Assembly (NCBI GenBank): GCA_012516175.1
Contig: JAAYWZ010000044.1
Coordinates: forward strand, 1-57,551
Origin: Bacilli bacterium
Lineage (GTDB): Bacteria; Bacillota_I; Bacilli_A; Haloplasmatales; Haloplasmataceae
Length of the DNA: 57,551 nt
Reading direction: 5' to 3'
Below are positions 30,879 to 54,287 of the stretch, piece after piece. How positions within the stretch are numbered: the first letter of the stretch is position 1; each line of letters begins with the position of its first letter. The notes under the pieces were generated by a model. The model saw nothing but the letters and a program-made list of their open reading frames with translations, was not told where the DNA came from and did not search any database. A program made the translations under genes and the position numbers.

Positions 30879-30890
30879 CACCTCTAACTT

Positions 30891-30920: not shown

Positions 30921-30930
30921 ATTCAAATTC

Positions 30931-30945: not shown

Positions 30946-30973
30946 ACCTCGTAAAGAAAGGATTTGGATTAGG

Positions 30974-33034: not shown

Positions 33035-33050
33035 TTAAGGAAGTATTGTT

Positions 33051-33704: not shown

Positions 33705-33729
33705 TACCTGCCAATTTCATGTAAATTAT

Positions 33730-33767
33730 CATATTTAATGAAATATGTATCATTACTATGGTATAAT
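33730..33767 (+). promoter_or_regulatory. Promoter with palindrome before the GH2-transport operon
   Basis: An extended -10 (TGG then TATAAT at 33762-33767) is preceded by the palindrome CATATTT-AATG-AAATATG (33730-33747), which overlaps the expected -35 region and could be an operator. No good -35 hexamer is visible. Confidence 0.5.
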
Positions 33768-33806
33768 CTACAAGCCTTAATTTAGACATATAAGGAAGTG
33801 ATGTCG

Positions 33807-35720
33807 ATGAAACGTTGGAAATATTTAACAGTGGAATATCCAAAAGAACCCATGGAAACCCATACAAAGAACATTGATGGAATTAATGTCTTATTCCAAT
33901 ATGATAAAGTTGTACCAAGTTTTGATACATATAAATTTAATGAACCTACCCGCAAGTATCTAAGTCTTGATGGTGAATGGAAATTTAATTTTGATTTAGA
34001 GAATCGCGGTCTTGAAGGAAAGTATTATGCAGTTGATTTTGATGACTCAACCTGGCAAAGTGTTATGGTACCACATTGTATCGATACAATGGAAAAACAT
34101 TACTTCCAAAGTTTTTCTCAAGCAGATTATGGTAAAGGACCTGGGTTTTTTGATGGATTTGCATGGTATCGTAAACATATAACATTAAATAACACTTGGA
34201 ACAATAAAGTTATTACCCTAAAATTTCTTGGTGCATATTATAGTGCTTGGATTTTTGTCAATGGTGAATATGTGGCTGTCCATGAAGGTGGTCATACACC
34301 ATTTTCCATCGATATCACGGATTATGTACATGAAGGCGATAATCTAATCGCTGTACGTATCTTACGGGATAAATGGTACGATGACTATTTGGCACAAAAA
34401 CCGCAACCAATAACCCATAGAACTCATATCGTTCATTCCCCTGTTGATTTATGGCCATATGGTGGCTTAACCCGTAATGTTTATCTCGAAGGTACGGAAA
34501 AAGTTTATATAAGTAAAATTTTAGTTAATGCACGTGATAAAAAATTAGAGATAAAAGTGATTGCCACAAATGATACAGAAGAAGAAAGGCACATTAAAGT
34601 AAGCATTAATCCAGGTGAAGGTACTAATGGTATTTTACAGGAACATGAGGTAGTTATTAGACCTAAGTCTGTAAGAGTCATCAGTGATCTTATTGATATA
34701 CCAAATGCGGAATTATGGGAACTAGATAATCCTAGACTATATGAAGCAAGAGCTACTTTAGATAATGGTGATAGTTTAAGTAGTAAGTATGGTATGCGAA
34801 CATTCAGAACCTGTGATACCAAGTTGTTATTAAATGATAAAGCAATCTTTCTTAAAGGATTAAACTGGCATGAAGAAACCTTCGAGAATGGACGAGCCAT
34901 GACGAAAAAGGAATACGATCGGGAACTTAGTTTAATGCAAGAAAGCGGTGCCATTTTTTTAAGAAACTGTGTATATAACAGACATCCTTACGCTTATGAA
35001 TACTGTGATTCTCATGGGTTACTAATGCTTGATGATATTGACCACTTCTGGATTACTTGTGAAATGCAGAAATTCCAACTTGAAGAATATGGCTTAAGTC
35101 GGGCTTTGGCATTAAAGATGGCATGGAACAATATGAACCACCCATCAGTAGTTATGTGGTGTGTCCAAAATGAATGCGACATGTCCAAACCTGATATCTT
35201 TAGAGCTTGGGTTTATGACTTAGTGAATGCGATAAGAAGTATCGATATTCAAAATCGCCCAATTACACAAGCACAACAAAGTATACGGTGGGCTGACCCA
35301 TCCCTAGATATTTGCGATGTCATCGGGGTAAATGAGTACTTAGGCACTCATCATGAAACTGATAAAGAGCATGAACTCGCACTTAGACTAGAAAGACTTC
35401 ATATGCAATATCCTCATAAACCAATTCTCATAACAGAAAATGGGGCTTGGTCGATAAAAGACCATGAAGAAACTGAAAAATGGCACATCGAACGGTTTAA
35501 TGCTCATTATGAGCAAGTACTATCAGTGAGTGAATTCGTGGTTGGTTATGTAATGTGGGTATTTAAAGATTACAAAACCCGTCACCCTTACGCTAGAAAG
35601 AATAATGGTGTTTCTGGTATGGGGATTGTAACATTTGATAAGTTAGAGAAGAAAAAGATTTTTGATGTGTACAAAAACGCTAAAGTACCAGAATACCATC
35701 TACAGAAAGTGCCTAAGTAA
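33807..35720 (+). CDS. Glycoside hydrolase family 2, cytoplasmic
   Basis: 637 aa, compact three-domain GH2 (beta-glucuronidase/beta-galactosidase size): sugar-binding domain with GEWKFNFDL and FAWYRKHI, Ig-like domain, TIM barrel with FLKGLNWHEE. Acid/base Glu456 in VQNE, nucleophile Glu544 in ITENG. No signal peptide. ATG 33807 is preferred over GTG 33798 and ATG 33801, which overlap AAGGAAG. It closely resembles the lipoprotein GH2 at 50342 throughout, so the pair look like inner and outer versions of one activity. First gene of the large transport operon. Confidence 0.88.
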   Translation: MKRWKYLTVEYPKEPMETHTKNIDGINVLFQYDKVVPSFDTYKFNEPTRKYLSLDGEWKFNFDLENRGLEGKYYAVDFDDSTWQSVMVPHCIDTMEKHYFQSFSQADYGKGPGFFDGFAWYRKHITLNNTWNNKVITLKFLGAYYSAWIFVNGEYVAVHEGGHTPFSIDITDYVHEGDNLIAVRILRDKWYDDYLAQKPQPITHRTHIVHSPVDLWPYGGLTRNVYLEGTEKVYISKILVNARDKKLEIKVIATNDTEEERHIKVSINPGEGTNGILQEHEVVIRPKSVRVISDLIDIPNAELWELDNPRLYEARATLDNGDSLSSKYGMRTFRTCDTKLLLNDKAIFLKGLNWHEETFENGRAMTKKEYDRELSLMQESGAIFLRNCVYNRHPYAYEYCDSHGLLMLDDIDHFWITCEMQKFQLEEYGLSRALALKMAWNNMNHPSVVMWCVQNECDMSKPDIFRAWVYDLVNAIRSIDIQNRPITQAQQSIRWADPSLDICDVIGVNEYLGTHHETDKEHELALRLERLHMQYPHKPILITENGAWSIKDHEETEKWHIERFNAHYEQVLSVSEFVVGYVMWVFKDYKTRHPYARKNNGVSGMGIVTFDKLEKKKIFDVYKNAKVPEYHLQKVPK

Positions 35721-36217: not shown

Positions 36218-36244
36218 GACGGTAAGTTGAAAAGGAGGTATTCC

Positions 36245-39124
36245 ATGAAAAAAAGTATTATTGCCTTAACACTAATCTTTGTATACATGTTTATAGCTTA
36301 TGGCACAATCAAACCTAATATCACAGTAGTTGCTGAAGAGGATACAAGTGGTGAGTATGCACCTTTAAATAGTTCTTTACAAGAATACATCAGTTATGAA
36401 GAATATCTAGAAACTCATAAGGATTACAACCTAGTTGATGCGCAAATACCTATTGATATATTTAGTTATGAAACCTTCAATCAACAAGTCGAGAATGAAA
36501 CCGATGGAATTGTGACTAGTGAACGTGGTAGTGTTACTTGGACATTTACAGTAAACACCAGCGGTTTCTATAATTTGCGTGTTGTTTATTATCCAGTAGA
36601 AGGTAAGAGTTCTAGTATTGAACGGAGACTCTATCTTGATGGTGTTGTGCCTTTTCAAGGTGCTGATCAATTAATTTTCACGCGTGTTTGGGTTGATAGT
36701 GAACAAGGGATCACTATTAATAACAACAATGAAGTTCGTCCTGATCAAGTTGAAGCACCTGAATGGCGGACCGTGTATGCTTCAGATTCGCAAAAATACG
36801 TTGAAGGTCCTTACCGATTTTTCTTAGAAGCAGGTGAACATACCTTAACTTTTGAATCAATTCGTGAACCAATGAAAATTGGTGCTCTCGTATTTGAAAA
36901 GGCGAAAGAAATTAAACCCTATGCGGAAATCATTGCTGAATTAAAAACTCAATATCCCATCTATACAGGAAAAACCATTAAATTACAAGCTGAACGCCTT
37001 GATATGCAAGATAAAGGTAATCAAGTCTTAGCAATAAAGAAATCGTCTCCAACCCTTTACCCCATAAGTGATTATAGCAGTCCCCGTACTGAACCATATC
37101 ATCCATATAATATTGTCTTAAATACGATTGGTGGTTATTCCTGGCGGGTGGTAGGTGATTGGATTGAATGGGACTTTGAGGCGCCAAAAGAAGGTTTATA
37201 CCAAATTTCCTTCCGCTTAAGACAAAACCAAAACCGTGGTGCTTTCTCTGCAAGAGAATTACGTGTTAATGGGGAAATTCCATTTAAAGAAGCTTATTCC
37301 ATCGCTGTAACTTACGATGCTGATTTCAAAATGTATACGCTTGGCGATAAAAGTGGTCCCTACTTACTCTATTTAAAGGAAGGCAAAAACACAATTAGCC
37401 TTGAAGTCACAACGGGACAAATGGGACCAATTATTAAAGAAGTTGAAGATAGCGCTCGTATTCTTAATGACTTATATCGGCAAATAGTGCAATTAACAGG
37501 TATTAATCCTGATAAATATATCGATTATGAATTAAGAAAGAAATTACCACATATGGAAACTACCTTCAAAGATGAAGGTGACCGTTTAACTCGTATTGTT
37601 GAACAAATCAAAGCTATTGCGAAGGAAAAAAGCGAAAAAACCGCTATTATTGAAAAAATGGCTGTACAATTAAAAGATTTGGCAAAAAATCCTGAAGGTA
37701 TTGTCAATCGGGTTAATGTATTCAAGAGTAATATCTCAGCCTTGAGCACTTGGATTCTATCAGCCAATGAACAACCATTAGAAATCGATTACATCTTAGT
37801 TGGTAGTCCTGGAATGCGTCTACCTAATCCAAAGACCAATATTTTCGAAAAGATTTACTTTGGTATCTTACGCTTTATTGCGACTTTCCTCGTTGATAAC
37901 ACCAATCTCTCATCCGATGGTTCTGGTGATGAGACTGTCGAAGTCTGGATTCAAAGTGGTCGCGATCAAGCGATGATTATCCGTAGCTTAATCGATAATA
38001 CCTTTACACCCCAACATAAAATCAATATTGATTTGAAACTTATTCCTGATGGGGTAGTCTTACCAGCAACATTAGCTGGAGAAGGACCTGATGTTGTATT
38101 AGCGGTAAATGGCAATATGACAGTTAACTTCGCGATGCGAAATGCGGCTCAGGACTTAACTATTTTCCCAGATTTTGAAGATGTGGCGAAAGACTTCCAT
38201 CCTAGTGCCTTTGTGCCTTTAACATATCAAGGTGGAATATATGGTCTACCAGAAACGCAAAGTTTCTTAATGCTCTTCTATCGTAAAGATATCCTAAGTC
38301 AAATGGGATTAGAAGTACCACGTACATGGGAAGACGTGGAAAAGATGATTCCCGTCATGCAAATTAATAATTATGAGTTCTACTTACCAGCTTCAGTAAG
38401 TATGTATGCGACATTACTTTATCAAATGGGTGGAACGCTCTATTTAGGTGAAGGCAATGACTTAGGTATTGAAAGCGGACTCGCTAGTGAAGAAGCAATG
38501 CAAGCATTTAAGACGTGGACGGACTTCTACACTAGTTATAAATTCCCAATCTCGGCAGATTTCGCGAACCGTTTCCGTACTGGTGAAATGCCAATTGGGA
38601 TTGCGGATTATACCTTATATAATACCTTATCAGTATTCGCACCAGAAATTCGTGGTTTATGGGGCTTTGCACCACTACCAGGAATAGAACGTGATGGGGT
38701 ACTCCATAATGAGTCAGTTTCAGGTGTGGGTAATACTTTAATGCTTAAAGCAGCTAAAAATAAAGAAGCTGCTTGGGAATTCATGAAATGGTGGGCAAGT
38801 TCACCAACACAAGTTGCTTATGGACGTGCTCTTGAAGGAATCCTCGGTGCTGCCGCACGATATCCCGCAGCTAACCTTGATGCCTTAAGCAAACTACCTT
38901 GGCCAAGTGAACATTATGATGCTTTAATCAACCAATTCAATAATGTTGTATGTTTACCTGAAGTACCAGGTGGTTACTTAACAGGTCGGGAAATCAATTA
39001 CGCTTTACTAGCGGTAGTAAATGATGGAATTAATCCAAGAGAAGCATTATATGAACATAAAAAGATTATTGACGTTGAACTGACAATTAAACGTAAAGAG
39101 TTCAACCTGTCAACGAAAGAATAG
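36245..39124 (+). CDS. Extracellular solute-binding protein with N-terminal CBM-like domains
   Basis: 959 aa. A hydrophobic signal or anchor segment (5-25) without lipobox Cys is followed by two beta-rich domains (about 45-215 and 240-395) that look like carbohydrate-binding modules (VTWTFTVNTSGFYNLRVVYYP; WIEWDFEAPKEGLYQISFRLR). A helical stretch of charged residues (about 420-500) follows, then a family 1 solute-binding domain (about 555-950) with VEVWIQSGRDQ, LAGEGPDVVLAVNG, GIYGLPETQSFLMLFYRKD and AAWEFMKWW. It is much longer than ordinary sugar-binding proteins (about 420 aa). ATG 36245 follows AAAAGGAGG; the TTG at 36227 does not have a site. It presumably delivers oligosaccharides to the two permeases next to it. 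Confidence 0.82.
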   Translation: MKKSIIALTLIFVYMFIAYGTIKPNITVVAEEDTSGEYAPLNSSLQEYISYEEYLETHKDYNLVDAQIPIDIFSYETFNQQVENETDGIVTSERGSVTWTFTVNTSGFYNLRVVYYPVEGKSSSIERRLYLDGVVPFQGADQLIFTRVWVDSEQGITINNNNEVRPDQVEAPEWRTVYASDSQKYVEGPYRFFLEAGEHTLTFESIREPMKIGALVFEKAKEIKPYAEIIAELKTQYPIYTGKTIKLQAERLDMQDKGNQVLAIKKSSPTLYPISDYSSPRTEPYHPYNIVLNTIGGYSWRVVGDWIEWDFEAPKEGLYQISFRLRQNQNRGAFSARELRVNGEIPFKEAYSIAVTYDADFKMYTLGDKSGPYLLYLKEGKNTISLEVTTGQMGPIIKEVEDSARILNDLYRQIVQLTGINPDKYIDYELRKKLPHMETTFKDEGDRLTRIVEQIKAIAKEKSEKTAIIEKMAVQLKDLAKNPEGIVNRVNVFKSNISALSTWILSANEQPLEIDYILVGSPGMRLPNPKTNIFEKIYFGILRFIATFLVDNTNLSSDGSGDETVEVWIQSGRDQAMIIRSLIDNTFTPQHKINIDLKLIPDGVVLPATLAGEGPDVVLAVNGNMTVNFAMRNAAQDLTIFPDFEDVAKDFHPSAFVPLTYQGGIYGLPETQSFLMLFYRKDILSQMGLEVPRTWEDVEKMIPVMQINNYEFYLPASVSMYATLLYQMGGTLYLGEGNDLGIESGLASEEAMQAFKTWTDFYTSYKFPISADFANRFRTGEMPIGIADYTLYNTLSVFAPEIRGLWGFAPLPGIERDGVLHNESVSGVGNTLMLKAAKNKEAAWEFMKWWASSPTQVAYGRALEGILGAAARYPAANLDALSKLPWPSEHYDALINQFNNVVCLPEVPGGYLTGREINYALLAVVNDGINPREALYEHKKIIDVELTIKRKEFNLSTKE

Positions 39125-39136
39125 GGGGCTTTAACC

Positions 39137-40114
39137 ATGGCAGTTAATGAATCAGTAGTGATGAAGAAAACCCCTGTCAGAGATTTTTTTAAAAAGTTTT
39201 GGGAAAAACGCAAGAAAAAGACAAAACATACCTGGCAGTTAATGAAAAAGAATAAAGAAAAGTATGTAATGGTTGCACCATTCATGATTCTCTTTAGTGT
39301 ATTTACGGTGCTACCAGTCCTAATTTCCATCTTCTTTAGTTTCACTAACTTCAATATGTTGGAATTTCCTGATTTTATCGGGTTTGAAAACTATAAGCGT
39401 CTATTTCTAGCTGATGATATTTTCCTCATCGCGATTAAAAACACCTTGATTTTAGCGATTATTACCGGACCTCTAAGTTACCTAATGTGTTTCGGCTTTG
39501 CATGGCTGATTAATGAATTAAAAAGACCACTCCGGGTCTTCTTGACAGTAGTTTTCTATGCTCCATCAATCTCCGGTAATGCTTATCTAATCTGGAAACT
39601 AATCTTCTCAAGTGATATGTATGGATACGCGAACTCTTGGCTCATGGATTTAGGTTTCATTAATGAACCTATCCTTTGGCTCCAGGATACCTCATATATC
39701 ATGCCCATCTTAATCATTGTGCAATTATGGTTAAGTTTGGGGGTAAGTTTCCTCTCCTTCATCGCAGGTTTACAAACAGTAGACAAAACACTTTATGAAG
39801 CTGGTGCTATCGATGGTATTCGGAATCGCTGGCAAGAATTATGGTTCATTACATTACCTTCAATGAAACCACAATTACTGTTTGGTGCCGTAATGCAAAT
39901 AACAACTTCTTTATCGATATCATCAATATCAATTGAATTAGCCGGTTTCCCATCAGTTGAGTATGCGGGACACACGATTGTGACACACCTTTACGACTTT
40001 GGTAGTGTGCGTTATGAAATGGGTTATGCGTCGGCAATTGCCTCACTACTATTCTTCGTAATGATCTTTACTAACTTAATCGTTCAAAAATTGTTGAGAA
40101 AGGTGGGAAGATAA
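39137..40114 (+). CDS. Sugar ABC transporter permease (MalF/UgpA type)
   Basis: 325 aa, six predicted membrane segments after a basic cytoplasmic N-terminus (about 1-45). The EAA loop that contacts the ATPase is EAGAIDGIRNRWQELWFITLP. CUT1 family inner-membrane subunit. ATG behind AGGGGG, 12 bases after the binding protein. Its stop overlaps the next permease's start by one base (TAATG). No ATPase gene is present in the window, so a shared MsmX-type ATPase encoded elsewhere is likely. Confidence 0.92.
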   Translation: MAVNESVVMKKTPVRDFFKKFWEKRKKKTKHTWQLMKKNKEKYVMVAPFMILFSVFTVLPVLISIFFSFTNFNMLEFPDFIGFENYKRLFLADDIFLIAIKNTLILAIITGPLSYLMCFGFAWLINELKRPLRVFLTVVFYAPSISGNAYLIWKLIFSSDMYGYANSWLMDLGFINEPILWLQDTSYIMPILIIVQLWLSLGVSFLSFIAGLQTVDKTLYEAGAIDGIRNRWQELWFITLPSMKPQLLFGAVMQITTSLSISSISIELAGFPSVEYAGHTIVTHLYDFGSVRYEMGYASAIASLLFFVMIFTNLIVQKLLRKVGR

Positions 40115-41028
40115 TGGATTTTGAATACATGACGTTACGTCAAAAAATACGCCGTATCTTACGCTTTGGTAAGGTCGGATCTTCAGGCAAACGCTTAAAC
40201 CGGAGTGTTTGGGGCGATATCTTCTTATTCTTTTTCTTAGGATTATTCGGTTTATTCAGTGCTTGGCCTCTCATCTTCGTTATCAATAATGCGTTTAAAC
40301 CTTTAAATGAAATCTTTCTATTCCCACCTAAGTTGTTTGTACAAAACCCAACAACTTCTAATTTCCGTGATATGTTCAATTTGATGAGTAACTCATGGAT
40401 ACCTTTCTCACGCTATATCTTCAACACTTTATTCATAACCTTAATTGGTACCTCAGGTAGCGTCTTTATTAGCTCTTTAGCAGCATTCCCGCTTGCGAAG
40501 TTCAACTTCCCAGGGTCCAAGACGATGTCAAAGATGATTGTCTATTCCCTCATGTTTAGCGGTGCTGTTACGGGTATTCCAAACTTTGTTATCATCTCCA
40601 AACTTGGATTATTAGATTCATATTGGGCTGTATTGTTACCAACATTTAGTTCCTCATTAGGGTTATTCTTAATGCGTAACTTCATGACCCAAATCCCTAC
40701 GGATCTAATTGAATCAGCCAAGATGGATGGTGCTAGTGATTTCTATACTTACTTGCATATCATTATGCCCCTTGCCAAACCAGCGTGGTTAACCTTAATT
40801 ATCTTACAATTCCAATCACTCTGGGGAGCAACTGGTGGTAGTTTCATATATAGTGAAAAACTAAAACCCCTAAGTTATGGTCTATCACAAATCGCGAATG
40901 CTGGTGTAGCACGAACAGGTGTCGTAGCTGCAGTATCACTCTTCATGTTAATCGTACCAATCTCAGTTTTCATCATATCGCAAAGTCAAGTTATCGAAAC
41001 TATGGCTTCGAGCGGTATCAAGGATTAA
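40114..41028 (+). CDS. Sugar ABC transporter permease (MalG/UgpE type)
   Basis: 304 aa partner permease with about six membrane segments and the EAA loop ESAKMDGASDFYTYLHIIMP. Translationally coupled to the preceding permease through TAATG; the two would form the channel heterodimer. Its C-terminus (IETMASSGIKD) is the usual MalG-like end. Nothing anomalous. Confidence 0.92.
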   Translation: MDFEYMTLRQKIRRILRFGKVGSSGKRLNRSVWGDIFLFFFLGLFGLFSAWPLIFVINNAFKPLNEIFLFPPKLFVQNPTTSNFRDMFNLMSNSWIPFSRYIFNTLFITLIGTSGSVFISSLAAFPLAKFNFPGSKTMSKMIVYSLMFSGAVTGIPNFVIISKLGLLDSYWAVLLPTFSSSLGLFLMRNFMTQIPTDLIESAKMDGASDFYTYLHIIMPLAKPAWLTLIILQFQSLWGATGGSFIYSEKLKPLSYGLSQIANAGVARTGVVAAVSLFMLIVPISVFIISQSQVIETMASSGIKD

Positions 41029-41040
41029 GGAGAATGCAGC

Positions 41041-42582
41041 ATGAAAAAAGTATTAGTTTTCGTACTATTTACAGTATTTAGTTTAGTTGCCTTTGTGAGT
41101 AAGCCAGCATACGCAAAGGATGAACTTAAAAATAGTTATATCTATAACTTTTGGGGTGAAGCGGTACCATCAGCACCTGGTTATGAATTAGAAAGAGTTA
41201 TCAATGTTAAAGAATATAAAGGTTTATATAATGCCTTTTCAAGTTTACAAGATATCTTTGTTTCCGATGATCGAATCTATTTAGTTGATAAATCGATTAC
41301 ACCTGATGTTCCAAGTCAAATTATCATCCTCGATCATGATTTTAACTTCATTGAGCGCTTCTATTTATTAAAAGATCAAGATGGAAAGATTTTCTCTTAC
41401 TATGACCAAGCCACAGGGCAAATGGTACAAGATCGCATTATCGGACCTGAAGGCATCTTCGTGACGAAGGATGGCGATCTTTACGTAGCTGATACAGCTT
41501 ATCGTGATAAAAGTGATGATTCTAATGCGATACCTGGAGCACGTATCATTCACTTTTCCATTGCTTACGATCGACGTGGTAATCCCTTCTACTATGTAAA
41601 AAGGATTATTCGGCAACCAGAAAATATGATTGGTAAAACCGAATTCTTACCATCAAAACTTGTTGTCGATAAAGCTGACCGGATTTACGCTGTCGTTCGT
41701 GGTGGTAATGAAGGGATAATCGAATTAAATGCTGATGGTTCATTCAGCCGTTATTTTGGGGTCAACAAGATGCGTGTAAATTTAGTCGATTACTTCTGGA
41801 AAAGGTTCGCGTCAGATGTTCAAAAAGAAAAAATGACGAAAGTATATGCTCCGCCATTTAATAATCTTGATATGGACGCTGATGGATTCATTTATGCTAC
41901 TTCAAGTGATCAAAACACGATAGATTTCATCAAACGAATTAACCCTAGTGGCGAAGACGTACTAGTTCGACGTGGTTATTTTAGCCCAAGTGGAGACTTA
42001 CAGGGTTCAACAACTACAGTCTTCGTTTCTGTATCAGTAAATGATTATGGTATGTATGCTTTACTCGATGAAACAACTGGTCATGTATTTATCTATAACT
42101 TTGATGGTGAATTACTAACGATTATTGGTGAAAAAGGTAGTACTAAGGGTAGTTCAATTCAACCAGTTGATGTCGCATGGTTAGGTGATAAGATTCTTGT
42201 TGCTGATGCGAAGAACGGACGTATAAGTGTCTATCGTCCAACAGAATTTGGGAAGTTAGTATTAGATGCGACAAAAGCATACTATCAAGGTGAATGGGAT
42301 TTGGCTGGTAATCTCTGGCTTGAAGTCATTAACCATAATGCTAACTATGATATTGCTTATGTTGGTTATGGCAAAATGCTTTATATGAATGAACAATACA
42401 AAGAAGCTAAGGATTACTTCAAATTAGGTAATAATAGAACTTATTATTCTATGGCTTTTAAGAAATATCGTAACGATATCTTACGGGATAATTTCTGGCT
42501 CTTTATAACCCCCATCGTCCTTGCAGCTGTTTGGGTAGTATATACAGAGTATAAATATAATCGTAAAGGGGGTAGCAACTAA
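41041..42582 (+). CDS. Secreted NHL/beta-propeller protein with C-terminal membrane anchor
   Basis: 513 aa. Cleavable signal peptide ending near AYA (about 25), then repeated six-bladed NHL-like segments (VSDDRIYLVDKS, KDGDLYVADTAY, DKADRIYAVVRGG, DADGFIYATSSDQ, LGDKILVADAKNGRISVYRP), a short TPR-like stretch (about 420-480) and a C-terminal membrane helix (FWLFITPIVLAAVWVV) with a basic tail. The propeller would therefore be outside the cell, anchored at its C-terminus. The sugar-metabolism link comes only from the operon. Function unknown; overlaps the YIP1 gene by one base. Confidence 0.8.
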   Translation: MKKVLVFVLFTVFSLVAFVSKPAYAKDELKNSYIYNFWGEAVPSAPGYELERVINVKEYKGLYNAFSSLQDIFVSDDRIYLVDKSITPDVPSQIIILDHDFNFIERFYLLKDQDGKIFSYYDQATGQMVQDRIIGPEGIFVTKDGDLYVADTAYRDKSDDSNAIPGARIIHFSIAYDRRGNPFYYVKRIIRQPENMIGKTEFLPSKLVVDKADRIYAVVRGGNEGIIELNADGSFSRYFGVNKMRVNLVDYFWKRFASDVQKEKMTKVYAPPFNNLDMDADGFIYATSSDQNTIDFIKRINPSGEDVLVRRGYFSPSGDLQGSTTTVFVSVSVNDYGMYALLDETTGHVFIYNFDGELLTIIGEKGSTKGSSIQPVDVAWLGDKILVADAKNGRISVYRPTEFGKLVLDATKAYYQGEWDLAGNLWLEVINHNANYDIAYVGYGKMLYMNEQYKEAKDYFKLGNNRTYYSMAFKKYRNDILRDNFWLFITPIVLAAVWVVYTEYKYNRKGGSN

Positions 42583-43220
42583 TGAAACAATTTCTTGAAT
42601 TACTGAAGTTTGCCCGCTATACGATGTTTCATCCCTTCGATGGATTCTATGAAATCAAGTATCGTGATCGCGGAAATGCATTAATCGCAACCATCTTTAT
42701 TGTGATTAATGCGATTCTCGCAGTTGTTTCAGCCCAATTTAATGGTTTCTTAATTAACTTTACTAATCCAGCGCGCATGAATAGTTTTAGCATCATTCTA
42801 TTCAATATCACGCCACTTTTAATCTTCGTTGTTGCTAACTATTCAACGACCACTTTATTTGATGGAAAAGGACTTTTTAGAGAAATCTATACTGTTGTTG
42901 GTTATTCATTACTACCTTTCATCATAATTAAACTATTCTTAGTCTTCTTAAGTAATGTCTTAACCTATGATGAGTTAGCATTATACACACTCTTCATGCA
43001 AATCGGTAGAGTATGGTTCTATTTCCTTGTCTTCTGTGGTTTAGTCGTCGTCCATGAATATGGGTTCTTCAAAACTATCATAACCTTACTCGCGACAGCA
43101 TTGGCTATTGCGATTATCACCTTCCTTGGTTTATTATTCTTTGCCTTATTCCAACAATTACTAGCGTTTATCTCAATTTTCATTGAGGAATTGTCGCTCA
43201 GATTGGAGGTATGGTTATGA
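42582..43220 (+). CDS. YIP1-family membrane protein
   Basis: 212 aa with five hydrophobic segments. The N-terminal MFHPFDGFYEIKYRDRGN and the later GYSLLPFIIIK are typical of bacterial Yip1-family proteins. It is sandwiched with one-base and four-base overlaps between the NHL and DUF5696 genes, which implies co-translation and probably a common membrane complex. Function unknown. Confidence 0.8.
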   Translation: MKQFLELLKFARYTMFHPFDGFYEIKYRDRGNALIATIFIVINAILAVVSAQFNGFLINFTNPARMNSFSIILFNITPLLIFVVANYSTTTLFDGKGLFREIYTVVGYSLLPFIIIKLFLVFLSNVLTYDELALYTLFMQIGRVWFYFLVFCGLVVVHEYGFFKTIITLLATALAIAIITFLGLLFFALFQQLLAFISIFIEELSLRLEVWL

Positions 43221-45943
43221 TAAACGTTAAAGAAACATTAGCAAAAACTAAACTAGCACTAAATAAAGGTATGAAATGGGTATTAAAACATAAACGCTTA
43301 GCCTTATTATTCATGGTCGTTGTAATCATTGCTATTTATGGTTTAAATGCCTTATTCTCCTTTAAATTAAAAGCAGATGCCTCATATCAAAAACCAGGTA
43401 GTCAGAAACTAGCCGATGCCATCGAAGTTATTGAGAATAATATCGTTGGTAACTATGAAGAAGTACTTGTATTTGAAAATGAGACCAAAGCAATGTATGT
43501 TGAAAAATCAACTACTAATGTGCGAATTCTCGATAAAGAAACAGGTGTTTCCTGGAACACATTGGCACTAGATACAATTAATTACAAAAACCTTAAGCCA
43601 CAACCTGGTTCAGATAAAGTCAATATAAGTGAAAGTATGCAAAAATATGTTAACCCCTTCAGCATTAATATCATCGCTAAAGATAACTCCCAAACCCGTC
43701 AAGAAGCTTACAAAAATAGTATTCAAGACAGAGACTTTACGATTGAAAAGATTGCTAATGGGGTAAGGTTAACCTATAACCTTCGTGATAAAACTTTACA
43801 AACATTTGAAATCTTCCCTAAGAAGATTACAGTTGAAAGTTTTGAAAAGAACATTAAGAGTAAACTTGATGCAGCATTTGAGAATGGCGATGTTACGGAA
43901 TTCTACTATAAAGAATTCTTAGAAAACTGGCCGTACTACTATGACATGATGACCGATGATAAAGGTCGGAAAATCTATGTATATAAGTTAGTATCCTTAC
44001 CAACTGTTGATAAGTTAAATGTTTTCAGACATGTCTTTGACAAGATTGGTTATACGCAAGATCAACTAATTGAAGATAACCTTGAAAACGGTGAATTAAC
44101 ATATATCTCAAAGAAAGCTAACTTTAAAGTAATTATGGAACTGACTCTAGATGGTGATGACTTCTTAATTAGGATTCCTACGGAATATCTAAAGAGTGAT
44201 AGTGCTACTTATGATATCACCGCCATATCCATCTTCCCATACTTTGGACAAAGTACGGCAAATAAATATAACAAAGATAATCCCGGTTATATGTTTATTC
44301 CCGATGGAGCAGGTGCTTTAGTAAAACTAAACAGTCAAGAAGTCAATTACTCGACATATACAAAGGCTATTTATAACAATGGTATCTACAAAACATATTA
44401 CCAAAAACCCACACCTCAAGAAGACATCAATATGCCTGTATATGGTTACTACGGAAATTACAATACATACATGCAAGGTTACTTTGCGATAATTGAAGAT
44501 GGTGCTGAAACAGCATACATAAATGTTCAACCGACTACAGTATCTGAGACAGCAAGCATGAATGCCTTATATCCACAGTTTGACTTAATGCAATTAGCTA
44601 GTGTAAAACTCTTCGGATACTATTCAACAAATACTACATCATATCTATCTCGCACACCAAGATTTAATCAAGAAGTTAATGTGCGTTATAAGCTCATAGT
44701 TGATGAAAAAATCGATTATTACGATTTTGTGGAAATTTATCGAGATTATCTAATAGATAAACTAAATCTTGTAGCTTCCTATGATGAATTCAAACCTAAG
44801 GTATTTCTTGATTTAGTAGGTAGCGTAAATATCCAGCATCATTTTCTTGGTGTACCATATGATACCCATATCTCCATGACAACATACAAAGAAGCCCAAA
44901 AGATTCTCGAACAACTTGATGGCAATCTTGTTGTAAGTTACCTTGGAGCCATAAATAAAGGGATTAATCAATCACTATTAACAGAGATTGAATTTGCCAA
45001 AGAAAATGGTACTTATGGAGAATATAAAAATTTAGAACAGTATCTAACTAATCGCGACAGTGAATTGTTTGTAAAATTACGCTTCTTAAATGTCGCCCAC
45101 AATAAAACTAATGGTTTTAACATGAAGAAGAATGCGGTGTATGGATTTGATAGTCAACCAATCACTAAATACACCTTTAATGTCGCAACTGGTCGTTTCA
45201 ATTTCTTATCGACAGCCAATAATCAATTAAGTCCAATCTTCTTAACAGATGTAGTGAACCATTTTATCAAGAACAATAACTATTTTGACAATATTTCTTT
45301 AAGTGATTTAGGTAGTACATACCTAGTTGACTACAACAAGAATAATCATATCTCACCATATGAAGGAAAGTACTACGAAGAAAAGAACTTAACCACTTTA
45401 AGTCAATATAACTTGATGTTAAATGATCCTTACATCAACAACATTCAATATGCACGATATGTGGAAAACATTAGTAGAGAAAGTACGAATTACTATCTAT
45501 TAACTGTTAATGTACCATTCAAACAATTGGTGATGAATGGCTTTGTAGAATATATATCCTTAAATGCAAATCTAAATACAGAAAAACCAATGGAATATTT
45601 CCTACTACAAGCTATTGAACTTGGACAACATCCGAAATTTACCCTAAGTTATAAGAATCCAAGTTTATTAAAAGATTCAGAGTTTAATTACTTCTATTCA
45701 GTTTATTACAAGAACTGGATTGATGATATTAATGAGATGGCTAATGCCTATGAAGCAGCATTCGAACAAATTGGCACTAACCAAATCATTAACCATGAAA
45801 TATTAGCCAATAATGTTTATAAAACAACTTATAGTACTGGTGTAAGTGTCATCGTAAACTATAACAACATTTCTATGGTTGTTGGCGAGCAAACGCTTGA
45901 ACCACTTAGTTATCTAATTATTGCCGAGGAGGTGGGAGAATGA
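43217..45943 (+). CDS. DUF5696-like membrane-anchored extracellular protein
   Basis: 908 aa. A basic N-terminus and one membrane helix (about 28-50, ALLFMVVVIIAIYGLNALFSF) precede a large extracellular part. Seen: YVEKSTTNVRILDKETGVSWNT, SIFPYFGQS, GYMFIPDGAGALVKLN and a barrel-like C-terminal half with KVFLDLVGSV and VVSYLGAI. This fits the DUF5696 family as I recall it; its activity is not known to me. ATG 43217 (GGAGG seven bases upstream) rather than 43211; it overlaps the YIP1 stop as ATGA and its own stop overlaps the next permease as ATGA. Confidence 0.72.
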   Translation: MINVKETLAKTKLALNKGMKWVLKHKRLALLFMVVVIIAIYGLNALFSFKLKADASYQKPGSQKLADAIEVIENNIVGNYEEVLVFENETKAMYVEKSTTNVRILDKETGVSWNTLALDTINYKNLKPQPGSDKVNISESMQKYVNPFSINIIAKDNSQTRQEAYKNSIQDRDFTIEKIANGVRLTYNLRDKTLQTFEIFPKKITVESFEKNIKSKLDAAFENGDVTEFYYKEFLENWPYYYDMMTDDKGRKIYVYKLVSLPTVDKLNVFRHVFDKIGYTQDQLIEDNLENGELTYISKKANFKVIMELTLDGDDFLIRIPTEYLKSDSATYDITAISIFPYFGQSTANKYNKDNPGYMFIPDGAGALVKLNSQEVNYSTYTKAIYNNGIYKTYYQKPTPQEDINMPVYGYYGNYNTYMQGYFAIIEDGAETAYINVQPTTVSETASMNALYPQFDLMQLASVKLFGYYSTNTTSYLSRTPRFNQEVNVRYKLIVDEKIDYYDFVEIYRDYLIDKLNLVASYDEFKPKVFLDLVGSVNIQHHFLGVPYDTHISMTTYKEAQKILEQLDGNLVVSYLGAINKGINQSLLTEIEFAKENGTYGEYKNLEQYLTNRDSELFVKLRFLNVAHNKTNGFNMKKNAVYGFDSQPITKYTFNVATGRFNFLSTANNQLSPIFLTDVVNHFIKNNNYFDNISLSDLGSTYLVDYNKNNHISPYEGKYYEEKNLTTLSQYNLMLNDPYINNIQYARYVENISRESTNYYLLTVNVPFKQLVMNGFVEYISLNANLNTEKPMEYFLLQAIELGQHPKFTLSYKNPSLLKDSEFNYFYSVYYKNWIDDINEMANAYEAAFEQIGTNQIINHEILANNVYKTTYSTGVSVIVNYNNISMVVGEQTLEPLSYLIIAEEVGE

Positions 45944-46845
45944 AAACCAAAAGACTACATTATCGGACTGTAAGAAGGATTAATGGCTTTCTCTTTGTAC
46001 TACCATGGATAATTGGGTTTCTCCTATTCTTCTTTATCCCAATTGTCACTACAATCGTTTTTAGCTTTAATAATGTTTCTCCAGCTCCTCAAGGTGGTAG
46101 ACAACTTGATTGGGTCGGCTTTAAGAATTACTATGATATGTTTAAAACTGTCCTTTCAAGTAATAATCAACAATATATCAGAATCTTTTATGAAGAATTT
46201 ATCAATATCATTATCAATACGCCACTTATTGTTATCTTCAGTTTATTCGCAGGATTACTTTTAAACATGAACTACAAAGGGCGCAGTGTTGTACGGGTTA
46301 TCTTCTTCTTACCTATCGTCTTAGGGTTAAACGTTGTATTAAACTTAATCAGTGTTTCTACAAGTTCAAGTTATATCGATAGCCAAACGCAAAGTCAAGC
46401 ATTCCTCCAAGCTGATTTATTCGAACGATTATTGTTGAATTCAGGATTACCACTATCAATGGTTGGATTCCTCTCAAGTAGTGTATCCCAAATCTTCATG
46501 ATCATGGCACGTTCAGGTGTGCAAATTCTCATCTTCCTAGCAGGATTACAATCCATCAACAAATCGTTATATGAAGTTGCGGAAATTGAGGGTGCTAACA
46601 AATACGAAGTATTCTGGAAGATTATTCTCCCGATGATGAGCCAGTTAATTCTCTTCGTAACGATTTATACAATCGTCGATATGTTCCTGATTTCGCGGGT
46701 TACCACAGAGATATACTACTACGCCTTCTTAAAAAGCCGTATCGGTCTCAGTGCTGCCATATCGATAGTATATCTATTATTCGTCTCAGGATTAATCGCA
46801 CTAGTATGGTTCATCTTATCGAAGGTGGTGGTGAAATTTGATTAA
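45940..46845 (+). CDS. Second sugar ABC permease (MalF/UgpA type)
   Basis: 301 aa with about six membrane segments and EAA loop EVAEIEGANKYEVFWKIILP. It pairs with the following gene, which overlaps it by eight bases. It differs clearly from the permease at 39137, so it is a second transporter rather than a recent duplicate. It is tied to the DUF5696 gene by an ATGA overlap. Confidence 0.9.
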   Translation: MKTKRLHYRTVRRINGFLFVLPWIIGFLLFFFIPIVTTIVFSFNNVSPAPQGGRQLDWVGFKNYYDMFKTVLSSNNQQYIRIFYEEFINIIINTPLIVIFSLFAGLLLNMNYKGRSVVRVIFFLPIVLGLNVVLNLISVSTSSSYIDSQTQSQAFLQADLFERLLLNSGLPLSMVGFLSSSVSQIFMIMARSGVQILIFLAGLQSINKSLYEVAEIEGANKYEVFWKIILPMMSQLILFVTIYTIVDMFLISRVTTEIYYYAFLKSRIGLSAAISIVYLLFVSGLIALVWFILSKVVVKFD

Positions 46846-47866
46846 CGAAAATATGTTCAAAATGCGGAAAGAAAAAGCTAGTTTGGCTTATCGCAATAAA
46901 GAACTCTATAAACTGCAGAGACGAGGATCTAAATTAGTCACAGGATTCTTCCTCGTCGTCATCATCCTTGGTTTGTCCTTTGTTATTATCTATCCGTTTA
47001 TGAAACTATTCCCAGTAGTGTTAAACCATTTCGATGACTTAGGAAGTCCTGAAGTAGTGTGGATACCAAAACGATTCTCACTAACTATCTTTAAAATCGC
47101 CGACTACATCGTTTACGCTGATCGCTTACTTATGGTGAAGTCCCTATTATATGCCTTTACCATTGCGATTATTCAAACGATGATGAGTGCGATGGCAGGC
47201 TATGCCTTTGCGCGAATTGACTTTAAAGGTCGTAATCTTCTTTTCGCGCTGGTCCTCTTTACATTCATCGTACCACCACAAGCATTATTAATTTCGCAAT
47301 ACTTGAGATTTAAAGAGTTTGATATCTTTGGGTTAATTCGCTTATTTACAGGTGATGACCTAGACTTAATTAATAGACCAATTACTCTATACATCTTAGC
47401 TTTCCTAGGATTCGGGATGAAACAAAGTTTATTTATCTTTATCTTCCGACAATTCTTCTTAGGAATACCAAATGAGTTAGAAGAAGCAGCCTTAATCGAT
47501 GGTTGTGGCTTCTACAAGACTTATTTCAAGGTTATGTTACCAAACTCTGTACCAGCGATGATGACGGTTATGGTCTTCTCCTTTGTATGGAACTATGGTG
47601 ATACCTATTATACTCGCTATTTCCATCCGAAGGGACCATACCTCAGTATCATCTTACTTGATCGCTTTGCGAACAATAACGAGCAGATGAACTTCGTAAG
47701 AACGATTGCATGGCGTTATTTCGGAGTTGAAACCTGGAGCGTCTTTACCTTTGATGCAGTTAAGCAAGCAGCTCTGATTATTTATCTAATTCCACTGCTA
47801 ATATTATACTTTATCATTCAGAGACGATTCGTCGAAAACTTTGAACGTTCAGGTATAGTTGGTTAA
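46838..47866 (+). CDS. Second sugar ABC permease (MalG/UgpE type)
   Basis: 342 aa. EAA loop EEAALIDGCGFYKTYFKVMLP; about six membrane segments. Start TTG at 46838 is preferred because AAGGTGGTGG ends six bases upstream; ATG 46853 is the alternative. The segment between the first membrane helices is longer than in the 40114 permease. Partner of the 45940 permease. Confidence 0.88.
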   Translation: MINENMFKMRKEKASLAYRNKELYKLQRRGSKLVTGFFLVVIILGLSFVIIYPFMKLFPVVLNHFDDLGSPEVVWIPKRFSLTIFKIADYIVYADRLLMVKSLLYAFTIAIIQTMMSAMAGYAFARIDFKGRNLLFALVLFTFIVPPQALLISQYLRFKEFDIFGLIRLFTGDDLDLINRPITLYILAFLGFGMKQSLFIFIFRQFFLGIPNELEEAALIDGCGFYKTYFKVMLPNSVPAMMTVMVFSFVWNYGDTYYTRYFHPKGPYLSIILLDRFANNNEQMNFVRTIAWRYFGVETWSVFTFDAVKQAALIIYLIPLLILYFIIQRRFVENFERSGIVG

Positions 47867-47959: not shown

Positions 47960-50104
47960 ATGAAAAAGAAGATTTTTGTTTTATTAGTTGTCGTTGTTGC
48001 GTTAATGCTCAGCGGTTGCTTCAAGAAGAATCAATCTTCAACTACTGATCCACAATCAACAACTACAACTCAATCTGGTACTACAACTACTCAATCTGGT
48101 ACTACAACAACTCAACAAACTACTACACAACCAAAACCAAGTGAACCAACTGTAATCGTATTCGCAAACCATGCGCAATCTAGTACAGATCCAACTTATA
48201 AGGATCCTACTACTGGTGAATACAATGATGCGCACATGGCTCCAGCGATTCGTCAAGCTAAATTACAGGCATTAGATACAGTCTTACAAGAACTCAATGT
48301 TAAGATTGAATTCACTCAATATCCTGGCGATGTTCGTGAAGTAATCTTACAATCTGTTCTAGCTAATGACCCAATTGGCGATATCGTGCAAATGTGGGAT
48401 GGTTCTCAAGGTACTGTCTTCGCTCAAAACGTTCTTCAAGACTTAACAGAATTCCGTCATTTATTTGATGGCGAAGAATGGATGCTTGGTGTTGCTGATA
48501 TTTATGGCAAGACCCTTGGCTTTACCCACACTGGTCCAGAAGGATTCCCATATTGGCCATTATTCTATAACATCACCTTAATTCAAGGTTGCGAATTAAT
48601 TCCTACTGACGAAGATGGCGATGCAATTCTTCCATCACAATTATGGGAAGAAGGTAATTGGACTTGGGCAACATTTAAAGATTACTTATCAAAATTAAAG
48701 CAATGTTATACTGACCGTGGTATAACTAGTCCAAACCGTAACTATGTAATTCATGCTTATGAAGAAGATTATCGTTTCGGTGCCTACAGCATGATTAGTG
48801 CTAACGGTGGTTTCTTATTAAAACCAGATGGCTCTATCGGTATCTTAGACGATAACTTTATCGAAGCAGTTGAATTCTTCCAAGAATTAAAACGTGAAGA
48901 ATTACTATTCACATGGTATAGTGGCGAAGAACCTGGATGGTTATGGAACGGTTATGACTTTGCTCGTGGTGAAACAGTCTTTACTTCTATGCCTAACTGG
49001 TATCAACAAACAGCATTAGCTAACTTAACAGGTCGTGGTGAACTCATGGGTATGGTACCATTCCCAATTGGACCAAGTGCTAAAGAAAACCCAGAACAAT
49101 ATCCATATCACTTACCAGTAACTGGTGGTAACGTACTTGGTATTCCTAAGGGTGTATCAAAAGAAAGAGCTGAATTAGCAATTAGAGCTTACATTATGTA
49201 TACTGTTGAAACATATAAAAACTTAGGTGACTATGAATCAACAACTGATTACTTTAATGCTAAAGCGAATGAAACAGCAGCTCAATTATTCCCAACATCA
49301 CATGAAAAATATGGTGAGTCACTCAAGAAATCTTATCAAGATTATCTAGCAGCTCATAGCACATTCGATGCAGGACAAATGTTAGGTATCTTAGCTCAAC
49401 CATTCTTCTATACAGATATTAATAACTTAGTCAAGACCCCTACAACAGATGCACGAACATACTTCCAAGCTAAATATGCTGAATATGAAGCTAAAGTTGC
49501 TTCCTTACGTGAAATTATCGATAGTGATGAAATCCACGATAATATGAAACCAGTTATTAAATTATTGCCTAATGCAAAACTCAACTTTGCATTGAATACT
49601 GACTTCGAAGAAGTCAACTGGGCTAACTATCTCGAAGCATATGACATTGGTGATGACAGAGAATTAACAATCGCAGATGCAACATTTAACTTTGCTAATA
49701 TTGATGCTACAAAACCTGGAACAGGTAAGTTCAAGGTAACATTAGCTGATAAACATGGTAACACGGCAGAAGCTGAGTTCAGTGTCAACATTTATGATCC
49801 AGATGAAGAAGTTGCACCTGTAATTGAATTAAAAGATCCTACTAAACCTATTCAAATTACAGTTAATACTAACTTAGCATCCATAAACATTTCTACTTAT
49901 GTAAGTGTATACGATAAATATGCTTTAGCAGATGGTACAATCCTCGAAGGTCAATTTGACTTAATTAGTTACCTCAAAGTTGATGTTTCTGGTGTAGACG
50001 TATCACAACCTGGTGTATATGATCTCATCTTATCAGTAACTGACTTTGCTGGTAATGAAACTGAACTTATAGTTGAAATCGAAGTAGTTGAGCCACAAGA
50101 ATAA
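47960..50104 (+). CDS. Sugar ABC transporter solute-binding lipoprotein with C-terminal Ig-like domains
   Basis: 714 aa. Signal peptide with lipobox LSGC (Cys20), Thr/Gln/Ser linker (about 25-58) encoded partly by a 21-bp repeat, then a family 1 solute-binding domain (about 65-510; DIVQMWDGSQGTVFAQN, FPYWPLFYNITLI, GGNVLGIPKG). From about residue 530 there are two Ig-like/DUF5011-type repeats (VIKLLPNAKLNF; VIELKDPTKPIQI). ATG behind CAGGAGGG. Codon usage looks like that of ppdK, fitting high expression. Last gene of the transport operon; probable partner of the second permease pair. Confidence 0.87.
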   Translation: MKKKIFVLLVVVVALMLSGCFKKNQSSTTDPQSTTTTQSGTTTTQSGTTTTQQTTTQPKPSEPTVIVFANHAQSSTDPTYKDPTTGEYNDAHMAPAIRQAKLQALDTVLQELNVKIEFTQYPGDVREVILQSVLANDPIGDIVQMWDGSQGTVFAQNVLQDLTEFRHLFDGEEWMLGVADIYGKTLGFTHTGPEGFPYWPLFYNITLIQGCELIPTDEDGDAILPSQLWEEGNWTWATFKDYLSKLKQCYTDRGITSPNRNYVIHAYEEDYRFGAYSMISANGGFLLKPDGSIGILDDNFIEAVEFFQELKREELLFTWYSGEEPGWLWNGYDFARGETVFTSMPNWYQQTALANLTGRGELMGMVPFPIGPSAKENPEQYPYHLPVTGGNVLGIPKGVSKERAELAIRAYIMYTVETYKNLGDYESTTDYFNAKANETAAQLFPTSHEKYGESLKKSYQDYLAAHSTFDAGQMLGILAQPFFYTDINNLVKTPTTDARTYFQAKYAEYEAKVASLREIIDSDEIHDNMKPVIKLLPNAKLNFALNTDFEEVNWANYLEAYDIGDDRELTIADATFNFANIDATKPGTGKFKVTLADKHGNTAEAEFSVNIYDPDEEVAPVIELKDPTKPIQITVNTNLASINISTYVSVYDKYALADGTILEGQFDLISYLKVDVSGVDVSQPGVYDLILSVTDFAGNETELIVEIEVVEPQE
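48070..48108 (+). repeat. Short tandem repeat encoding a Thr-rich linker
   Basis: TCAATCTGGTACTACAAC occurs at 48070 and again at 48091, a 21-bp period coding a Gln-Ser-Gly-Thr-Thr-Thr-Thr unit in the lipoprotein linker. Confidence 0.75.
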
Positions 50105-50284: not shown

Positions 50285-50341
50285 CAGTACAATTACTATA
50301 TCTTAATTTAGTTAAACAGCAATTTTTTAAGGAGAATGCCT

Positions 50342-52456
50342 ATGAAAAGAAGGTTCTTAATCATCCTAACATTGTTATCGTTAGTTATGTTAGTAAGCTG
50401 TTTTCGTAAAAGTGAAAGTAGTACAACAACAACTAACATAAATACGACAACGACGAATCAAACTACAACAACTGAAGAAGACGACGATTTTGAATACGTC
50501 ATTAGTCATCCCAATGCGACAAAAGACTATTTTGACAAAGAACCAATGCGCACAGAGATTAAGAATATCGACGGAGTTAATGTAGTTTATCAATATGGTC
50601 AAGTAGTACCATCATTTGAAAATTATGATAAAGAAGAAGAAAAACGCATTAACATCTCGTTAAATGGCGAATGGCGTTTTACTTTTGATCAAGAAAACAA
50701 GGGAGTCCAAGAACAATGGTACAGTCCCTTCTATAACGATTCAACTTGGCAAACAGTAAATGTACCATCAAGTTGGGATTTATACGAAGTAAATCGCTTC
50801 ATGTACATGTATGGTCCATTTGGTGAAGGTACACCTTTTGTCGATGGTTACGCTTGGTATCGTAGCACCTTTAACATCGATAAAGAGTGGCTTGATAATT
50901 ATGTGAAGTTAAATTTCTTAGGAGTAAATTATCGTACCTGGATTTATATCAATGGTACTTATGTTGCAGCACATGAAGGTGGTCATACTTACTTTTCCCT
51001 TGATATTAGTCGTTATTTGAAAAAAGGAGAAAACACCATCGCGGTACGTGTATATCGTCGCCCTGATTATAAAGACTATAGTGCATTAGGTGACGCTTTA
51101 GAGCCTGTATACGATAATCGTGCAGTAGTGCAAGGACCTGTTGATTATTGGCCATATGCAGGAATTACCCGCGATGTTTATTTAGAAATAACAGATAGAG
51201 TTACCGTAAGTAAAGTTATTGCTTATGCTAAATATAATAGTCTAGATTTATATGCGGTGATTTTTAATAATTCTAATGAGACTGTGACAAGAAAAGTAGT
51301 TTTTAATCCTGGTGAAGGAACTGGTGGAGCAGTAATTCAGGACACTATAACCATTGAACCTAATCAAGTTAGGGTTATTAAAAAGACAATTGCGATCCCT
51401 TCTGCCAAAGAATGGAGTACAGAGACCCCCAATCTTTATAAAGCTAAAGTAAGTTTATACACTACAGATACTAATATTAACACTGATAATTTAAGTGCTA
51501 CTTATGGAATGCGGGAAATTAAAGTTGAGAATTCCCAAATATATTTGAATGGTCATAGCATCTTCCTAAAAGGGACAAATTGGCATGAAGAAACCGGCAT
51601 CTCAGGAAGAAGTATGACTAAGGCTGAGTATGATTATGAGTTTGAATTAATGAAGGGTATGAACATCAACTTTGTCCGTAATGCCGTATATAACAGACAT
51701 TATTACGCTTATGAGGTTGCTAATCGCATGGGTATCCTCATGATGGATGATACCGATAACATGTGGATGGGTATTGATGCGATTAGAGTTCAATATCAAG
51801 AATATAAATTGTCGAAAGCGATGGCAGCAATGATGGCTTGGAATCAAATCAATCATCCAGCAGTAATCATTTGGTGCTTACAAAATGAAAGTTCTACAGG
51901 TGGTTTCTATACACAATGGGTAAAAGAGATGTATGATGTTGTAAAGGCCATCGATGTACAAAAGCGTCCGATAACTGTTGCTAGCCATGGCAATGTAGGT
52001 GTCAATGACCCTGCGAATAGCTTCTTAGATATTTTAGGTTGGAACGAATACTATGGTTATTTTAATCCAGAAACTGATCTAGTTAGTGCTTTACAAGTGT
52101 ATAAACAACGCTTCCCTGGTAAACCAGTCATTATTACGGAAAATGGTTCTTGGAGTATCTATGGTCGCTCAGGTACCCAATCTGGTGGTGAGCATTGGCA
52201 AGCTAATCTTTTCCAATTAAATTATAATCAAGTAATTTCGCAGAGTGATTATGTCGTTGGGTACGCCTTCTGGAACTTCAAGGATTATAAACAACGGCGC
52301 GGGTATAATCAAACCTATAATGGTATTTCAGCAATGGGGGCAGTTACTTTCCACGGTGTTGAAAAAGATGGTGTATTAGAAGTATTTAAGAAAGTAGTTT
52401 ATTATCGAATTAGAGATGCGGTTAATCCTAAACCATATCCTGTAATTGAAGAGTGA
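50342..52456 (+). CDS. Glycoside hydrolase family 2 surface lipoprotein
   Basis: 704 aa. Signal peptide with lipobox LVSC (Cys19), short Thr/Asn/Ser linker (to about 46), then a full GH2 enzyme: GEWRFTFDQ, YAWYRSTFN, IFLKGTNWHEE, acid/base Glu516 in LQNESS and nucleophile Glu600 in ITENG. It aligns end to end with the cytoplasmic GH2 at 33807. ATG 50342 has AAGGAGA correctly spaced; ATG 50336 overlaps the site. It opens a new transcription unit continuing into the heparinase-like gene 10 bases later. Substrate unknown; beta-glucuronidase or beta-galactosidase activity are both possible. Confidence 0.88.
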   Translation: MKRRFLIILTLLSLVMLVSCFRKSESSTTTTNINTTTTNQTTTTEEDDDFEYVISHPNATKDYFDKEPMRTEIKNIDGVNVVYQYGQVVPSFENYDKEEEKRINISLNGEWRFTFDQENKGVQEQWYSPFYNDSTWQTVNVPSSWDLYEVNRFMYMYGPFGEGTPFVDGYAWYRSTFNIDKEWLDNYVKLNFLGVNYRTWIYINGTYVAAHEGGHTYFSLDISRYLKKGENTIAVRVYRRPDYKDYSALGDALEPVYDNRAVVQGPVDYWPYAGITRDVYLEITDRVTVSKVIAYAKYNSLDLYAVIFNNSNETVTRKVVFNPGEGTGGAVIQDTITIEPNQVRVIKKTIAIPSAKEWSTETPNLYKAKVSLYTTDTNINTDNLSATYGMREIKVENSQIYLNGHSIFLKGTNWHEETGISGRSMTKAEYDYEFELMKGMNINFVRNAVYNRHYYAYEVANRMGILMMDDTDNMWMGIDAIRVQYQEYKLSKAMAAMMAWNQINHPAVIIWCLQNESSTGGFYTQWVKEMYDVVKAIDVQKRPITVASHGNVGVNDPANSFLDILGWNEYYGYFNPETDLVSALQVYKQRFPGKPVIITENGSWSIYGRSGTQSGGEHWQANLFQLNYNQVISQSDYVVGYAFWNFKDYKQRRGYNQTYNGISAMGAVTFHGVEKDGVLEVFKKVVYYRIRDAVNPKPYPVIEE

Positions 52457-52466
52457 GAGGTTAATT

Positions 52467-54275: not shown

Positions 54276-54287
54276 GTGGTATTGGTT

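Follow-up and report, generated by a model that had tools for sequence, protein, structure and literature searches.

A 57,551-nt window from a genome of the Haloplasmataceae (contig JAAYWZ010000044.1) carries an eight-gene block in the order SBP1-P1a-P1b-NHL-YIP1-DUF5696-P2a-P2b, with all genes on the forward strand (Table 1; coordinates refer to the whole window). It encodes a long substrate-binding protein (SBP1), two pairs of ATP-binding cassette (ABC) permeases and, at the centre, a trio made up of an NHL β-propeller protein, a YIP1-domain membrane protein and a protein of the DUF5696 family. A preliminary description, made from the sequence alone, listed seven of these genes, and Pfam searches and open reading frame (ORF) coordinates agree with the families and positions it gave. 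It left uncounted SBP1, which lies at the start of its range and is a constant member of the set; SBP2, at 47960, sits just beyond that range. The tight spacing it reported is also borne out: P1a and P1b overlap by 1 base, a gap of 12 bases separates P1b from NHL, NHL and YIP1 overlap by 1 base, YIP1 and DUF5696 by 10 or 4 bases (first or second ATG of DUF5696), DUF5696 and P2a by 4 bases, and P2a and P2b by 8 bases. A scan for promoters and terminators gave no more sites than shuffled sequence.

The trio is flanked by the two permease pairs, as first described, and all four permeases show BPD_transp_1 matches and the glycine of the EAA coupling loop. Because this glycine is invariant in the aligned sequences (P1a 99/99, P1b 106/106, P2a 112/112 and P2b 109/109), both pairs look like working, ATPase-driven importers. 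No MalK-type ATPase is encoded in the operon; two MalK-type ATPases encoded elsewhere in the same genome are candidate partners. The two-permease EAA loops and a MalE-type substrate-binding domain are CUT1 features, and together with a candidate MalK-type ATPase encoded in the genome outside the operon they are shared with CUT1 importers that use a common ATPase (MalFGK2 and MsmEFG-MsmK type). In contrast to those importers, here two permease pairs form a fixed set, the long binding protein has two extra β-sandwich domains and three accessory membrane proteins are obligatory. The Sphingomonas alginate importer (AlgM1M2SS with AlgQ1/Q2) is likewise CUT1-like and takes long acidic glycan oligomers; as generally described it has one permease pair and no equivalents of NHL, YIP1 or DUF5696, which sets it apart.

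The NHL protein consists of a signal segment, the propeller, a TPR-like stretch and a C-terminal transmembrane helix, and a profile search of the PDB matched solved NHL propellers and TPRs. YIP1 has five predicted transmembrane segments. The two are fused at about a third of loci (39 YIP1 proteins fused to NHL vs 78 separate), and in the fusions the C-terminal helix of NHL runs on into YIP1. The anchors proposed earlier hold across the families, a hydrophobic segment being present at the C-terminus of 72 of 73 unfused NHL proteins and at the N-terminus of 112 of 116 DUF5696 proteins. NCBIfam gave no match for the DUF5696 or the YIP1 protein of the window.

SBP1 begins with a hydrophobic segment followed by β-sandwiches (residues 74-224 and 251-395), a helical region (399-514) and a MalE-type substrate-binding domain (569-933). 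Its AlphaFold2 model (predicted TM-score, pTM, 0.85) matched MalE-type binding proteins in Foldseek, with a TM-score to MalE of up to 0.82. Since a lipobox is found in only 17 of 88 SBP1 sequences and the N-terminal hydrophobic segment in all 88, an uncleaved anchor or the complex itself probably retains most of them. SBP2 is the variable partner of the block; it groups with annotated solute-binding proteins at two other loci (L014 and L015), SBP2 itself being a seed of that profile.

Table 1. Genes of the block and its neighbours in the window, with supporting matches.
Feature	Coordinates	Strand	Evidence
SBP1, 965-residue long substrate-binding protein	36227..39124	+	SBP_bac_1 6e-25 (Pfam); start TTG 36227 or ATG 36245
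P1a, permease 1 of pair 1, MalF/UgpA type	39137..40114	+	BPD_transp_1 6e-9, above cut-off
P1b, permease 2 of pair 1, MalG/UgpE type	40114..41028	+	BPD_transp_1 2e-13, above cut-off
NHL β-propeller protein	41041..42582	+	Pfam NHL E 1.3e-7, 31.7 bits vs cut-off 20
YIP1-domain membrane protein	42582..43220	+	Yip1 (PF04893) E 7e-14, 52.4 bits vs cut-off 28.6
DUF5696 protein	43211..45943	+	Pfam DUF5696 E 4.5e-122
P2a, permease 1 of pair 2	45940..46845	+	BPD_transp_1 1.3e-5, 25.4 bits, just under 26.4 cut-off; EAA loop intact
P2b, permease 2 of pair 2	46838..47866	+	BPD_transp_1 4e-12, above cut-off
SBP2, lipoprotein, presumed second binding protein	47960..50104	+	Lipobox LSGC; C-terminal Ig-like domains 2e-5
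Upstream cargo genes: DUF5107-TPR, GH2, GH59, GDSL esterase, GH2	24426..35720	+	Pfam
Downstream cargo genes: GH2, 609-residue protein, GFO/IDH/MocA oxidoreductase, metallophosphoesterase	50336..56410	+	Pfam

Conservation of the block across genomes

The block was compared at 122 DUF5696 loci from Bacillota and Treponema, drawn from the same genome, its relatives, two plasmids and 80 public contigs. The public loci came from a scan of one genome per species; the broad DUF5696 alignments (A1 and A3) held no stretch conserved enough to serve as a query, so a four-sequence alignment was used, and the sample is biased to that clade. These 80 loci belong to Haloplasmataceae, Acholeplasmataceae, Paenibacillus, Lachnospiraceae, other Clostridia and Treponema. 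At essentially all of the 122 loci with enough sequence the block is kept, nearly always in the same order. It is complete with separate NHL and YIP1 genes at 51 loci and with an NHL=YIP1 fusion at 23; at four loci P2a and P2b are fused as well, and most of the others are incomplete through contig ends or ORF calling. On a Butyrivibrio fibrisolvens plasmid nine genes follow the identical order; a plasmid of Paenibacillus cellulosilyticus has the same core of eight, its NHL and YIP1 being one fused protein. The trio is thus found together widely outside the genome in which it was first noticed. No relative was found by tblastn in viral contigs.

At L120 and L149 DUF5696 is absent from the ORF table yet is found by tblastn, most likely having been masked by the long minus-strand ORFs of the region. 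At L143 (Paenibacillus sp. OVF10) DUF5696 and SBP1 are each broken into several reading frames by frameshifts or assembly errors, while most other block genes look intact.

Co-occurrence at the level of whole genomes points the same way. In the genome of the window DUF5696, SBP1 and NHL-YIP1 each occur seven times, at shared locations, and among 40 relatives the carriers of DUF5696 are the carriers of NHL-YIP1, except for one truncated remnant and weak, partial matches. In a set of 392 genomes from the phylum, 48 have strong DUF5696 matches and 46 have the SBP1 N-terminus; 46 have both, none has SBP1 alone and two have DUF5696 alone. One of these two has its match at a contig start, and in the other the match is a truncated gene, the C-terminal half only, next to genes for GH30 and a permease. 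The two genome sets were compiled by reading search-result tables, and the resulting Fisher p of 5e-58 is inflated by kinship of the genomes and serves as a guide only; the direction of the association is nevertheless decisive. A chance neighbourhood is rejected by this co-occurrence and by an order kept in some 120 loci. At L028 a 339-residue gene (1219-2238), an internally deleted module or a short relative, matches only the C-terminal 40% of DUF5696 and lies between GH30 and permease genes in a genome without NHL-YIP1 or SBP1.

Fold and catalytic positions of DUF5696

DUF5696 is a family of unknown function, often multi-copy, in plant-biomass and gut bacteria (Paenibacillus, Lachnospiraceae, Treponema). 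A search of literature outside subscription journals found no paper mentioning DUF5696 and none combining NHL repeat, Yip1, ABC transporter and permease, and the papers on GH161 clusters and Paenibacillus binding proteins leave YIP1 unmentioned. Within that coverage the earlier view of a trio lacking an established function stands; the ABC-importer parts are clear, and no description of their architecture was found. The obligatory presence of SBP1, the seven copies in one genome and the GH129 fold of DUF5696, whose catalytic residues appear to be lost, are additions to the preliminary description.

The layout comprises an N-terminal transmembrane anchor, a GH129-like β-sandwich (about 84-500), a TIM barrel (about 531-850) and a C-terminal β domain. 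A profile of 35 members matched DagB of Zobellia (E 6e-12 to 1e-11) and NagBb of Bifidobacterium (E 2e-7) in the PDB. The predicted structure (pTM 0.82) retrieved 5opq (DagB, E 5e-29) and NagBb (5wzr, E 2e-22) in Foldseek, followed by GH101 and GH36 enzymes; the TM-score on the GH129 targets is 0.70-0.73 over the whole ectodomain at about 10% identity. The β-sandwich, barrel and C-terminal β domain of these glycosidases (NagBb 5wzn; DagB 5opq) align with DUF5696 along the whole chain, whereas DUF5696 differs in its membrane anchor and in lacking conserved acids at the aligned catalytic positions.

The reference residues were NagBb Asp435 and DagB Asp486 and Glu517, and conservation was computed on 97 dereplicated DUF5696 sequences. 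In the profile alignment of these sequences no conserved acid is found in the segment aligned to DagB Asp486, which reads SDLGS, NQLGN, DSIGS, EGITN, AGFDR and so on. The stretch about 30-45 residues further on has a conserved Asn741 and Tyr743 and no conserved acid. In a first alignment, the positions without variation hold G, P, Y, T, N and L. The simplest reading is that DUF5696 descends from a glycosidase and now serves, without catalysis, as a binding or scaffold subunit. An active glycosidase as the leading view was rejected, no acid being conserved at the aligned catalytic positions.

The copy in the window has Gly at position 391, where 92% of its relatives have Asp. Like other members with unfused NHL and YIP1, it has an insertion in the β-sandwich that most members of the fused type lack.

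One importer or two

Two permease pairs and three accessory proteins are present in one conserved block, but do they form a single machine? With modest confidence, the block is read as one multi-subunit CUT1-type oligosaccharide importer with two import pores around an NHL-YIP1-DUF5696 core. Each permease heterodimer (P1a/P1b and P2a/P2b) would be driven by a shared MalK-type ATPase encoded elsewhere. The fixed core would bind both pairs: YIP1 would sit in the membrane, with the NHL-TPR propeller attached to it on the outside, and DUF5696 would also lie outside, held by its N-terminal anchor. DUF5696, as a GH129-type glycosidase that has lost catalysis, could act as a glycan receptor, a dock for binding proteins or an assembly scaffold. 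SBP1, with its MalE-type domain and two extra β-sandwiches, would bring cargo to the complex, and ordinary lipoprotein binding proteins would supply the second pair. Gene content and order, co-occurrence, fusions, folds, the non-conserved acids at aligned catalytic positions and the coupling motifs are observed; a physical complex, transport, the assignment of binding proteins to pairs, the role of DUF5696 and the size of the cargo are inferred. Besides the conserved order, the one-to-one presence and the fusions, the reading draws on the unvarying EAA glycine, the MalK-type ATPases encoded elsewhere, the varied carbohydrate genes beside the paralogs, the GH129 fold lacking strictly conserved barrel acids, and correlated divergence of the subunits (r 0.92 for DUF5696 with NHL, 0.89 with P2a and 0.79 with P1a; mirror-tree values without a background control).

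The preliminary description had suggested fixed-ratio synthesis of a membrane-spanning assembly. The tight gene coupling and the NHL=YIP1 and P2a=P2b fusions fit this part of the proposal, and the subunits may form a physical complex. It had also suggested an uptake or surface-processing complex for large glycans, which are a putative cargo. The ectodomains would be periplasmic in Treponema, which is diderm, and a role confined to surface capture of whole polymers is therefore unlikely as a general rule.

A transporter subunit with the fold of a glycosidase has a parallel in the SLC3 heavy chains 4F2hc and rBAT, which are anchored proteins with a glycosidase-like ectodomain bound to an amino-acid transporter of animals (PMC8537225). 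Like DUF5696 they combine a single transmembrane helix near the N-terminus, a large outside domain and a constant transporter partner, but they pair a GH13 fold with an SLC7 carrier where the DUF5696 system pairs a GH129 fold with ABC permeases; the likeness is one of concept and not of homology. It is tentatively proposed, with rather less confidence than the single importer, that the block might represent a new ABC importer architecture, in which four permease subunits surround an NHL-YIP1 core and a dead GH129-type glycosidase is an integral receptor or scaffold, as a bacterial counterpart of 4F2hc/rBAT. Should the single-importer reading prove true, Gram-positive bacteria would take up glycans with, among others, a machine that has two ABC pores and counts a retired enzyme among its subunits. 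Many annotations of sugar importers in which the block genes figure as unrelated neighbors would then have to be revised. With a fold, an ancestry and a fixed partnership, DUF5696 now has a role that is directly testable.

Several points weigh against a single importer with a non-catalytic subunit. The main rival, considered unlikely, is a pair of cooperating transporters encoded by one operon, in which SBP1 works with pair 1 and SBP2 with pair 2, the trio serving as an accessory of pair 2 and a cargo pool being shared without a single complex. At the two rearranged loci, L124 and L145, SBP1-P1a-P1b and the P2 genes have moved as units and the pair blocks are separated, as two such transporters would allow. 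Divergence of NHL, YIP1 and DUF5696 also follows pair 2 (r 0.82-0.89) slightly better than pair 1 (0.70-0.83), again as mirror-tree values without a background control. However, the SBP1 N-terminus never occurs without DUF5696 in the 392 genomes, which independent transporters would not need.

The assignment of catalytic positions by profile alignment, rather than by residue-level superposition, and the conservation of one barrel acid bear on the loss of catalysis. DUF5696 could instead be catalytically active, its active site having shifted, and trim glycans where they enter the importer: its three-domain fold is that of active GH129 enzymes, E803 is acidic in 91% of the 97 sequences and D534 in 82%, and the catalytic residues of DagB and NagBb themselves differ (PMC5698469). 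This is improbable, as no barrel acid exceeds the conservation of E803 and neither the Asp486-aligned segment nor the stretch downstream, with its conserved N741 and Y743, offers a conserved acid. Least probable of all is that the trio stands outside the transport path as a sensor or regulator in which the propeller and DUF5696 bind glycan outside and YIP1 signals to gate the permeases or expression; AraC or LacI regulators do occur at the loci and transporters can be gated by membrane proteins that accompany them, but Pfam and topology prediction revealed no cytoplasmic signalling domain in any of the subunits and the trio is fixed one-to-one with both permease pairs.

Cargo and genomic surroundings

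The block is part of a larger carbohydrate cluster, which also contains GH2, GH35, GH59 and GDSL genes and encodes an AraC regulator. Other copies in the same genome adjoin GH16, GH13, GH3 with a LacI regulator, GHL10/DUF4127, GlcNAc-epimerase or FAD-oxidoreductase genes. Because the paralogs stand beside such different carbohydrate genes, the module looks like a general-purpose uptake system whose specificity can be exchanged. The hydrolase beside each copy would predict β-1,3-glucan as cargo at the GH16 locus and α-glucans at the GH13 locus. In the window, neighboring genes weakly suggest a cargo of β-galactoside-rich oligosaccharides.

At L008 (12815-18592) genes for two GHL10 proteins and one DUF4127 protein come after a paralogous module, and one for a phosphodiester glycosidase (NAGPA) comes before it. 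The related loci L044, L046, L047, L076 and L077 have ORFs of similar sizes, and loci of this type are possibly a distinct module subtype.

In the cluster with GH2 and GH35, the GH59 protein (30974-33034) is of the galactocerebrosidase type and has a C-terminal lectin domain. Directly upstream of the hydrolases, a 1101-residue protein (24426-27731) combines DUF5107 with many TPRs. The 609-residue protein downstream (52446-54275) has no Pfam or NCBIfam match above cut-off and weakly resembles the C-terminal part of heparinase II/III (E 0.0019). Further away, positions 4839-17225 hold an arginine/ornithine fermentation cluster with genes for arginine deiminase, ornithine carbamoyltransferase, carbamate kinase, 2,4-diaminopentanoate dehydrogenase, ornithine aminomutase subunits, a MutL-like protein and an alanine-racemase-like protein.

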